A stretch of 64,000 bases of DNA from Lachnospiraceae bacterium A2 (lineage in GTDB: Bacteria; Bacillota; Clostridia; Lachnospirales; Lachnospiraceae), in NCBI GenBank assembly GCA_000403315.2, contig KE159636.1:2383321-2447320 (forward strand), given 5' to 3'. A program made the translations under genes and the position numbers. The notes beneath the pieces are model-generated. The model was not told the origin of the DNA and made no database searches. It saw only the letters and a list, made by a program, of their open reading frames with translations. Shown here piece after piece: positions 34,147-36,727 of the stretch. Numbering within the stretch: position 1 is the first letter of the stretch; each line of letters begins with the position of its first letter.

Positions 34147-35194
34147 AGAAAAATATGTAGCGTACGTGGGGACGTATACCCACGGGAACAGCGTAGGCAT
34201 CCACATTTTTGATATGAATGTGGAAGAAGGGAGTATGAAGGAGCGCAAGGTGGTACCCATTAATAACCCATCCCACCTGACCGTTTCGGCAAATGGGAAA
34301 TTTCTGTATTCCATCGCCGACGAAGGGGTTGCTGCGTTTAAAATCCTGCCAGACGGGGATTTGGAGCTTATCAATGATAAATGGATTGGCGGCATGCGCG
34401 GGTGCTACGTAGACGTGGACAAGGAAAACCGGTATCTGTTTGTGGGGGGCTACCATGACGGCCGGGTTACCATGATGCGGCTCAATCAGGATGGGAGCAT
34501 TGGAGAAATTGCCGACGGCATTTTCCATACAGGCATGGGCAGGAGCATCGCAGAACGGAATTACCGCCCCCATGTGAACTGCGTGAAGCTGACGCCTCAG
34601 CAAAGGTTCCTCTGTGCCGTAGACGGAGGCCTGGACCAGGTAAAGATTTACCAGATTGACTATGAAAAAGGGAAACTGAAGATTGCGGACATCCTGCGGG
34701 AGCATCTGGAATCTTCCCCGAGGATGATCCGGTTTAGCCGGGACGGGCGGTTTGCTTTTGTTCTGTGTGAAGAAAGAAATGTTGTAGACGTGTATACGTA
34801 TGAATGTACCCCGCAGGGGCCGGAATTTGAAAAAATCCAGAGCATCCCTACTGTGGAGGAGGAAGAAAAGCGCAACTGCGGCGCTTCTGGCATGGAAGTC
34901 AGCAAGGATGGGAAATACCTGTTCTGCTCGAATGCAGGGGCTAACTCCGTGATTGTGTATTCCATTAATCAGGAAACCGGGGAGCTGGCGGTAGTATGCG
35001 ACTCGAAAATCAGCGGGGACTATCCCAAGTCCATTGCTATTTTCCCAGATGGCCGGCATTTCCTGAGCCTGAACCATGATACCAATGAAATTATGACATT
35101 CCGTGTGAATTATGAGAAAAATTATTTCCTGATGAAAGGCAAGCCAATTGCCATTGACCAGCCGAACTGCATCCGGATCCATAAGCTGGCGTAG
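34139..35194 (+). CDS. Lactonase family beta-propeller protein (6-phosphogluconolactonase-like)
   Basis: A 351-residue seven-bladed propeller of the YbhE/LPL family. Blade motifs 'VAYVGTYTHGNSVGIH', 'NPSHLTVSANGKFLY', 'RMIRFSRDGRFAFV', 'GMEVSKDGKYLFCSN' and 'YPKSIAIFPDGRHFLS' repeat. E. coli Pgl hydrolyses 6-phosphogluconolactone; many relatives have no known substrate. ATG 34139 overlaps trhP by eight bases with AAAGGAGG before it. It is the last gene of the operon. Confidence 0.85.
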   Translation: MSEEKYVAYVGTYTHGNSVGIHIFDMNVEEGSMKERKVVPINNPSHLTVSANGKFLYSIADEGVAAFKILPDGDLELINDKWIGGMRGCYVDVDKENRYLFVGGYHDGRVTMMRLNQDGSIGEIADGIFHTGMGRSIAERNYRPHVNCVKLTPQQRFLCAVDGGLDQVKIYQIDYEKGKLKIADILREHLESSPRMIRFSRDGRFAFVLCEERNVVDVYTYECTPQGPEFEKIQSIPTVEEEEKRNCGASGMEVSKDGKYLFCSNAGANSVIVYSINQETGELAVVCDSKISGDYPKSIAIFPDGRHFLSLNHDTNEIMTFRVNYEKNYFLMKGKPIAIDQPNCIRIHKLA

Positions 35195-35277: not shown

Positions 35278-35318
35278 GGGAGCACCTTGTGAATCGTTGG
35301 CAGGGTGCTCCCTTTTTT
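35278..35318 (+). terminator. Rho-independent terminator of the ireB-lactonase operon
   Basis: GGGAGCACC (35278-35286) pairs with GGTGCTCCC (35304-35312), then six Ts. Confidence 0.85.
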
Positions 35319-35390
35319 CTTCTATCAGGAAAGGCTTTGTCACGCTAAAGCGTGAAAGTACCTTCCTATAAAAGAAAAAATAATATGCAC

Positions 35391-35565
35391 AGGGTCTGCC
35401 CCAACGAAGCGAGGGTACTCGTGCGAATAGAAGATGTCACTGCGTGACCGCACTCGGTGCAGCAAAGGTTCTAAGCGCCAGTGGCGCTTGTTCAGAACAG
35501 ACCAAAACGGAGTGTAGACGGCAAGCCCCTCATGAGTGAGGGGTAGGGGAGCTGAAGTGGGCTTG
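35391..35565 (+). ncRNA. Multi-hairpin structured repeat, RNA-like, identity unknown
   Basis: GGTCTG (35393-35398) pairs with CAGACC (35498-35503) and encloses three hairpins: CGAG-GGTA-CTCG (35410-35421), TGCG-TGAC-CGCA (35441-35452) and a long one, GTTCT plus AAGCGCCA against TGGCGCTT plus AGAAC (35468-35498). Then CCCCTCA-TGAG-TGAGGGG (35526-35543) is enclosed by CAAGCCC (35522-35528) against GGGCTTG (35559-35565). A smaller hairpin, TCACGCT-AA-AGCGTGA, precedes at 35339-35354. The 3' part recurs at 1785-1823. A terminal hairpin followed by GGGGAG recalls the right ends of IS200/IS605-type elements and their omega RNAs; no transposase or TnpB is present. Strand is my guess from that resemblance. 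The remaining gap sequence 35195-35599 has no gene. Confidence 0.5.
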
Positions 35566-35599
35566 TTCACTTTGTTCCCGTGGGTTACTATGCCAGGTT

Positions 35600-36727
35600 T
35601 TACTTTTTATAAAGCCGTTCCAAATAGGAGAACTGGCTTCCCATATTTTCCAGCATTAAGTCTAACAGCGTCAGCGCAGCCATGGCTTCTACTACAACCA
35701 CAGCCCGGGGCACAATCACTGGGTCGTGCCGCCCATGGATGGAAATTTCTTTATCTTCCCCTTGCCGGGTAATGGTATTCTGGGCAGATGCAATGGAGGG
35801 GGTGGGCTTTATGGCAGCACGGAATATGATGGGCGCGCCGCTGCTGATGCCCCCTAAGATCCCCCCGGAATGGTTGGTGGAGAGGGCTGGTTTCCCATCT
35901 TTCATGGCGAAGCTGTCATTGTTTTCAGAGCCCAAAGCGGCTGCGGCGGCAAAGCCGTCCCCAATTTCAAAGCCTTTGACGGCGCCAATGGAGAAAATGG
36001 CTTTTGCCAGGTTTGCATCTAATTTATCAAATACGGGTTCCCCGATTCCGGCAGGGACCCCGGTAATGATACATTCAATCATTCCCCCGGCAGAATCCTT
36101 TTTTTCCATGCAGGCGCCCAGAAATTCCTGGGCTTTCTGGCAGGGGAGGGGTTCCGGCATGTACAGGGGGCTTGCAAGGATTTCCCTGCGGGTGTCGGCA
36201 AGGTTCCCCCGGAGCAATTCTTCTGGGGTTTTCCCAATAGAAACCGGGCCGATGGAACGGGCGTAAGTCAGGAAGGAAATGCCGAGCTGCCCCAGCAGTT
36301 TGGCGGCGACAGCCCCTGCGGCCACCCGGCCAATGGTTTCCCGGCCAGAGGAACGGCCACCGCCCCGGTAATCCCGGAACCCATATTTCATGTCAAAGGT
36401 ATAGTCTGCATGGCCCGGGCGGTAGTAGGATGCAATGTCCCCATAATCCCTTGAACGCTGGTCTTGATTAAAAACCAGAAGGCTGATAGGGGTTCCTGTG
36501 GTTTTCCCTTCAAAAACGCCAGATAAGAGTTCCGCAGTATCTGGCTCATTCCTCTGGGTGGAAAATTTATTCTGCCCGGGCCTGCGCCTGTTTAAGTATT
36601 CCTGTATATCTGCTTCTGTAAGGGGAAGGCCTGCAGGGCATCCGTCGATGACAACGCCGATGCCTTTCCCATGGGATTCCCCCCAAGTTGTGATTTTAAA
36701 TTGACTGCCAAGTGTTGAACCTGCCAT
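35600..36727 (-). CDS. aroC: Chorismate synthase
   Basis: A 375-residue enzyme that converts EPSP to chorismate, the last common step to aromatic amino acids; it needs reduced FMN. Signatures: 'TTWGESHGKGIGVVIDGCPAGLPL' (key GESHG), 'GGGRSSGRETIGRVAAGAVA' (key GRSSGRETIGR) and 'HDPVIVPRAVVVVEAMAALTL' (key RHDPVIVPRA). Length is normal. CAGGAGGTC precedes ATG 36727. It stands alone here; other shikimate genes are not in the window. Confidence 0.96.
   Translation of the reverse strand: MAGSTLGSQFKITTWGESHGKGIGVVIDGCPAGLPLTEADIQEYLNRRRPGQNKFSTQRNEPDTAELLSGVFEGKTTGTPISLLVFNQDQRSRDYGDIASYYRPGHADYTFDMKYGFRDYRGGGRSSGRETIGRVAAGAVAAKLLGQLGISFLTYARSIGPVSIGKTPEELLRGNLADTRREILASPLYMPEPLPCQKAQEFLGACMEKKDSAGGMIECIITGVPAGIGEPVFDKLDANLAKAIFSIGAVKGFEIGDGFAAAAALGSENNDSFAMKDGKPALSTNHSGGILGGISSGAPIIFRAAIKPTPSIASAQNTITRQGEDKEISIHGRHDPVIVPRAVVVVEAMAALTLLDLMLENMGSQFSYLERLYKK

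Follow-up and report, generated by a model that had tools for sequence, protein, structure and literature searches.

Between two convergent genes of Lachnospiraceae bacterium A2 lies a gap in which several hairpins can be drawn, and the question raised by this locus is whether the gap holds a structured RNA, the remains of a transposon or an element of some other kind. The gap belongs to a 64,000-nucleotide stretch of DNA, which we refer to as the window. A preliminary description of the window confined the feature to 35391-35565, gave it no coding role, drew six stems in it, and considered an orphan guide-RNA scaffold, a transposon relic and a new structured RNA. Here, we argue that the feature is likely to belong to a modular, palindromic DNA repeat without autonomy of movement, of which this is one copy among many dispersed over Lachnospiraceae genomes.

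Anatomy of the copy in the window

The gene upstream of the feature ends at 35194, and its intrinsic terminator is visible on the plus strand as an inverted repeat with 12-nt arms (35278-35289/35301-35312) and a T-run (35313-35318). A simple consensus scan with a loop limit of 8 did not flag this terminator (35278-35318). The terminator is a part of the host and not of the element, and the repeat is joined to it: the copy occupies about 35312-35577, directly 3' of the terminator, and the downstream gene (35600-36727, minus strand) is convergent to the upstream one. The proposed extent of 35391-35565 was therefore part of the feature, lacking hairpin A and the last 12 bases. That the segment has no coding role was borne out, since it is not covered by any ORF of at least 80 aa.

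The basic unit of the repeat starts with hairpin A, from which a short linker leads to hairpin B, and it closes with a 3' module of hairpins C and D. The order in the window copy is terminator, hairpin A, hairpin B (split), a second insert and the 3' module, all described here on the plus strand. Hairpin A (35313-35380) is built from two inverted repeats, with lower arms at 35313-35325/35368-35380 and upper arms at 35331-35346/35349-35364; in its lower stem the T-run of the terminator is base-paired to an A-run. Hairpin B (35386-35461) was delimited by model alignment and by its three covarying helices, namely the outer helix TGCAC/GGTGCA (35386-35390/35456-35461), GTGCG/CGCAC (35421-35425/35449-35453) and GTCAC/GTGAC (35436-35440/35444-35448). 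The 3' module (35522-35577), recognised by model alignment, covariation and inverted repeats, comprises hairpin C (CCCCTCA/TGAGGGG, 35526-35532/35537-35543), the segment GGGGAGCTGA, the terminator-like hairpin D (35555-35561/35566-35572) and TTTGTTC. Two long-range helices are alternatives to hairpin D, CAAGCCC/GGGCTTG (35522-35528/35559-35565) and CAAAG/CTTTG (35463-35467/35570-35574). The perfect 8-bp stem and the CAAGCCC/GGGCTTG and CCCCTCA/TGAGGGG stems that had been drawn earlier are indeed present as inverted repeats.

Two optional modules were found in the window copy. Comparison of copies identified a 26-base module, AGGGTCTGCCCC...GAGGGT (35391-35416), that interrupts hairpin B on its 5' strand; some copies have it and others lack it, and of two orthologous copies it is found in L147 and missing from L234. 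The other module (35468-35521), which carries the perfect 8-bp stem (35473-35480/35482-35489), was present in 10 own-genome copies (L061-L069, L088) among the copies listed and absent from the others, and most copies have about four bases in its place. Further inserts occur elsewhere: GTCCTAAGGAATCCCCC...GGTACCCCTTAGGACAAATCC within hairpin B in several species (L141, L150, L157, L182), and GTCTACGCTTCGCTTCGGTCCG... before hairpin C (L119, L154, L158, L182, L249). The window module at 35468-35521 matched the L154 module on the minus strand with 24 of 30 bases identical (E 1e-4) and that of L158 with E 0.02, the three others being at chance level. As a lead, the 3' half of the GTCTACGCTTCGCTTCGGTCCG module may be an inverted relative of the window module. 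The genus also has a different hairpin repeat, TTATCGCACTGCGGCGGGTATGAAATCTGTCGC...GGAGAATCCTGC.AAGCAGGATTC, which stands beside the present repeat or replaces parts of it; the TTATCGCACTGCGGCGGGTATGAAATCTGTCGC repeat was seen upstream of the element in L075, L083 and L166, and also at the aroC locus of a related genome (L093, G023).

Dispersal, terminator context and turnover

The 3' third of the feature had been noted to recur at 1785-1823. This recurrence is real and belongs to a second, degraded copy on the minus strand (1884-1773; model match of 36.4 bits, E 5.8e-8), which matches well only at about 1773-1835, corresponding to the 3' module. That the unit is dispersed proved true far beyond these two places. 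When the own genome was searched with a 321-base query, at least 60 matching pieces were found (best 40 of 132 candidates scored), seven of them near full length; the 3' module alone gave at least 41 pieces (best 40 of 69 candidates scored). Merging the pieces of both searches, with those within 300 bases joined into one place, yielded at least 54 places, which is a lower bound. In two near-identical sister genomes of the same genus, G017 and G028, the model gave 66 and 68 matches, respectively, with E no greater than 1e-3; a part of these matches is weak.

More widely, a DNA search found matches in 33 of 99 relatives, and a covariance model, for which no more than 11 candidates were scored per genome, matched in 108 of the 299 genomes by which the family was sampled. 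Named carriers, all Lachnospiraceae, include Anaerostipes hominis, Eubacterium sp. 14-2, Lachnospiraceae bacterium 3-1, Lachnoclostridium An181 and Mediterraneibacter. Sampling across the order gave matches in 23 of 295 genomes, eight of which lie outside the family (E 1e-7 to 5e-4). Three of the out-of-family loci (L294, L295, L301) have a terminator-like start, hairpins A and B and a plain terminal hairpin, and one (L300) has the C-D part only. The C-D module was also seen alone, with hairpins A and B missing, at L284 and L298 as at L300. Collections of phages, plasmids and viral contigs gave no match to the repeat, which counts against the reading as a mobile DNA repeat.

To characterise the sites, 15 truncated, weak or second copies among 97 model matches were left out before the terminator test, so that 82 copies were typed and 81 analysed; three more were dropped before the neighbour-gene analysis, leaving 79. 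A T-run of four or more marked the start of 60 of the 81 copies. In 32 of the 60, the T-run directly followed a hairpin with a folding energy of at most -8 kcal/mol, compared with 65 of 592 control T-runs taken from the same loci (Fisher p about 1e-13). The T-run was absent at the detected start of the other 21 copies, and 28 of the 60 had no strong hairpin before the start; both observations count against the DNA-repeat reading. The nearest upstream ORF within 400 bases was on the same strand for 52 of the 79 copies and on the other strand for 14, far away for eight and missing for five, and mechanical ORFs of at least 80 aa overlapped 21 of the 79. In 10 of 65 cases the 3' end of a copy was followed, at a distance of no more than 18 bases, by the start of another hairpin A, compared with 61 of 3250 spots chosen at random. 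In G028, four copies form a head-to-tail array. Judging by these two observations, a following copy seems to treat the end of the preceding one as a terminator.

The repeat family is widespread and recently amplified. Among 62 copies, mean identity was 0.80 within genomes and 0.66 between genomes, a difference reached in none of 1000 permutations. Across the genus, the element was present at one of 28 aroC loci, that of its own genome; 21 of the 27 element-free loci retain both neighbours, and no junction was readable at the site because the intergenic DNA is too diverged. In G017 and G028, the inside of the copy differs at two sites while the flanks are about 99-100% identical. At one site the 49-base hairpin B, lying between ATGCGCA repeats, is absent from one strain, and at the other hairpin B together with a module was exchanged or lost. 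Pairs with module turnover in near-identical strains were L253/L217 and L249/G017. In general, copies acquire or lose whole hairpin modules, and they do so at fixed sites.

No clean empty site was found, which counts against the DNA-repeat reading; G017 and G028 have nearly all compared copies in common. Of four G028 flank sets compared with G017, two were unmatched, one ran into contig ends within the array region, and for the fourth the copy at that site was shorter. When all flanks were compared against one another, L183/L167 gave a rough presence/absence pair with unalignable flanks, and L132/L120 did not align. Taken as a whole, the turnover of sites fits dispersal, and the turnover of modules fits recombination between copies.

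Folding and covariation of the hairpins

How good is the evidence for the stems? Folded singly and compared with 200 shuffles, the window sequence gave a z of -1.19 on the plus strand (25 of 200 shuffles as good) and -1.60 on the minus strand (11 of 200). As the fold is not clearly better than that of shuffles, the mere fact that six stems can be drawn is weak evidence. The comparison of copies provides strong evidence for the stems, as judged from the aligned sequences. In alignment A1 (30 diverse copies), pairing holds in 93.7% of cells and two-sided changes occur in 12 of 29 pairs, with 86 two-sided-change cells compared with 13-20 when slid. In alignment A2 (94 distinct copies), 95.7% of cells pair and 24 of 29 pairs have two-sided changes, with 410 such cells compared with 19-74 for slid controls; A2 was fitted to the model and includes the A1 rows, so that its counts lean towards structure. 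The A1 rows were collected with an exact 3' pattern; copies with inserts were left out and the remainder was thinned to 90% identity. Owing to the exact pattern, helix D was unable to vary in A1, and hairpin D covaries in loci found independently of that pattern. The sequences of hairpins B, C and D vary while pairing is kept. The lower arms of hairpin A are likewise variable and mostly complementary across copies, in a comparison of 110 rows that include some false starts. The alternative long-range helices covary in 8 of 14 pairs (37 cells compared with 3-18 for slid controls). The stems drawn earlier exist and covariation among copies is abundant, so that the outcome named beforehand as a refutation, a lack of covariation, did not occur.

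Wobble pairs were counted as a test of strand. In genome-level events, hairpin B had 18 G-U and 29 A-C wobbles (two-sided binomial p 0.14), with no G-U event in its inner helix, and neither hairpin A nor hairpin B has a plus-strand preference. The numbers were 34 G-U and 15 A-C for hairpin C (p 0.009), 11 and 2 for hairpin D (p 0.02; both two-sided binomial), and 43 and 21 for the alternative helices. The wobbles of C and D favour a plus-strand RNA and count against the DNA-repeat reading. If a plus-strand RNA were selected, an excess of G-U would be expected throughout; since the excess is confined to the 3' part, hairpins A and B are read as DNA hairpins. We infer, within the limit set by the fit of A2 to the model, that the 3' end would at least partly act as an RNA terminator.

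Rfam holds no family for the repeat: at the gathering threshold, tRNAs and a SAM riboswitch were the sole matches in the window and in 17 loci of other genomes, and with E relaxed to 10 only microRNA models at chance level appeared.

Rival readings and likeness to known systems

That the repeat works as a cis-acting RNA in 3' UTRs is conceivable, in that a read-through transcript could fold either into hairpin D or into CAAAGTG/CACTTTG together with CAAGCCC/GGGCTTG, and so serve as a back-up terminator or a switch. Hairpin D and the alternative helices are mutually exclusive, yet both covary; the plus-strand wobbles of C, D and the alternative helices agree with this reading, as does the orientation of the copies along the upstream gene. 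However, the strand-neutral hairpins A and B do not, and a simple consensus scan found no promoter-like site. Moreover, module variation at the same site in near-identical strains and absence at orthologous sites fit poorly with a needed regulator, and we consider this reading unlikely for the repeat as a whole; it may hold for the 3' module. An RNA could also have been copied rather than kept: a structured transcript might be reverse-transcribed in trans into the T-run behind terminators, as group IIC introns are. These introns, according to the available part of PMC3898094, recognise terminator-type DNA hairpins, so that insertion at such hairpins is common to both, and a reverse transcriptase (PF00078) was found in 18 of 22 element-rich genomes, the own genome included. 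We regard a retroelement as rather improbable, because four copy carriers (G024, G302, G236, G324) are devoid of a reverse transcriptase and the wobbles of hairpin B are strand-neutral. Unlike group IIC introns, the repeat has no intron core (domain V) by Rfam scans, encodes no reverse transcriptase and measures about 190-270 bases.

Could a resident transposase move the repeat instead? A REP/BIME system driven by a RAYT (Y1) transposase would account for extragenic palindromes in high copy, and Y1 transposases were found in 175 of the 299 family genomes, with five matches in the own genome. We find such a system quite improbable, since three genomes without a Y1 match (G021, G029, G030) carry model matches (at least 11 in G021, 8 in G029 and 7 in G030), and no RAYT gene was seen flanked by copies of the repeat. 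The own genome also contains three Y1-transposase elements that are almost the same (G000:C1:510888, 609387 and 888799; L273-L275); they share a block of about 650 bases and have no significant likeness to the repeat. The preliminary lead towards TnpB or IscB, with the feature as their orphaned omega RNA or guide-RNA scaffold, came from the layout of the 3' end, a likeness that turned out to be loose: GGGGAG.TGAAG is followed by a conserved hairpin and not by a variable guide. TnpB (PF07282) has no match in the own genome and is absent from 17 of the 22 element-rich genomes (found in 5), IscB (PF14239) passed the cut-off in none of the 22, and the covariance model of the repeat gave nothing at E up to 10 in eight TnpB loci and three Y1-transposase loci. 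We give this lead almost no credence. Among 244 neighbour proteins none recurs at more than a few loci; the most shared, at four loci, is response-regulator-like and is not a mobile gene. This, and the failure of TnpB, IscB, Y1 and reverse transcriptase as universal partners, counts against the DNA-repeat reading. The trans-acting partner may have been lost, or may come from a protein family other than those searched.

The repeat is probably a small mobile element with no enzyme of its own, which is nearest to the transposon relic or new structured unit suggested before, except that it is a widespread, recently amplified family and not a single orphan. We propose that the unit would spread as DNA, with its hairpins recognised by shape and the enzyme supplied in trans. 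The landing site would be a terminator hairpin with its T-run, and since hairpin D followed by TTTGTTC could imitate a terminator, each copy would become a landing site for the next, and modules would be swapped through recombination between copies. More tentatively, the repeat might be a shape-addressed, family-wide mobile DNA element whose single-stranded hairpins are recognised by the enzyme, which lands on terminators, whose own 3' end is the next landing site and may also be an RNA terminator/antiterminator pair; we think of this fuller scheme as possible rather than likely. To the host, a copy would at most be useful as a back-up terminator or as a tag of the 3' end.

Several repeats of bacteria offer a comparison. 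BIMEs, or REP elements, are extragenic mosaic palindromes behind genes that are linked to RAYT transposases; the present unit is larger, has another structure and has no constant Y1 transposase. EFAR (Efa) repeats are said to be palindromic, built from many sequence types and targeted to stem-loops, with parts of the stem left at their ends, and empty sites have reportedly been shown for them. The present repeat resides in another host family and lacks a clean empty site, and its likeness to EFAR is by description only. The available part of PMC1590033 places the Efa repeats of Enterococcus faecalis near gene 3' ends. In Streptococcus pneumoniae, BOX elements, as far as described in the available part of PMC3049150, are small modular stem-loop repeats (boxA-boxB(n)-boxC) at intergenic sites, with over 100 per genome, a strain-variable number of modules and no enzyme of their own. 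On that description the present repeat resembles BOX in its modularity, stem-loops, intergenic sites and enzyme-less state; it differs in being family-wide and terminator-joined and in having other hairpins, a comparison made by description and not with BOX models. SPRITE of the same species, in the same part of that source, is a terminator-like hairpin repeat near gene 3' ends with a single hairpin and a T-rich tract, whereas the present unit, which shares such a hairpin near 3' ends, has four hairpins and optional modules. Integron attC sites have only a general likeness, in that structure is kept while sequence is free.

High copy number, intergenic location, no coding capacity and variable assembly of modules are all found in the repeat, as in BOX, EFAR and BIME. 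By its anatomy, the repeat appears to work like BOX, SPRITE and Efa/EFAR of other Firmicutes and like BIMEs, and since this anatomy is shared, it is not new as a kind; none of the tests made here assigns it to any of these families. A literature search whose coverage excluded subscription journals and supplementary tables found no description of this repeat family.

We would like to point out that covariation alone is no proof of RNA function. If our interpretation is right, the strong covariation makes the repeat liable to be mistaken for a regulatory RNA in screens for structured RNAs. It would also provide a natural series of terminator-coupled insertions from which rules of structure-guided insertion could be read, and many Lachnospiraceae would harbour an undescribed repeat, present dozens of times wherever a count was possible, by which the 3' ends of their genes are reshaped.
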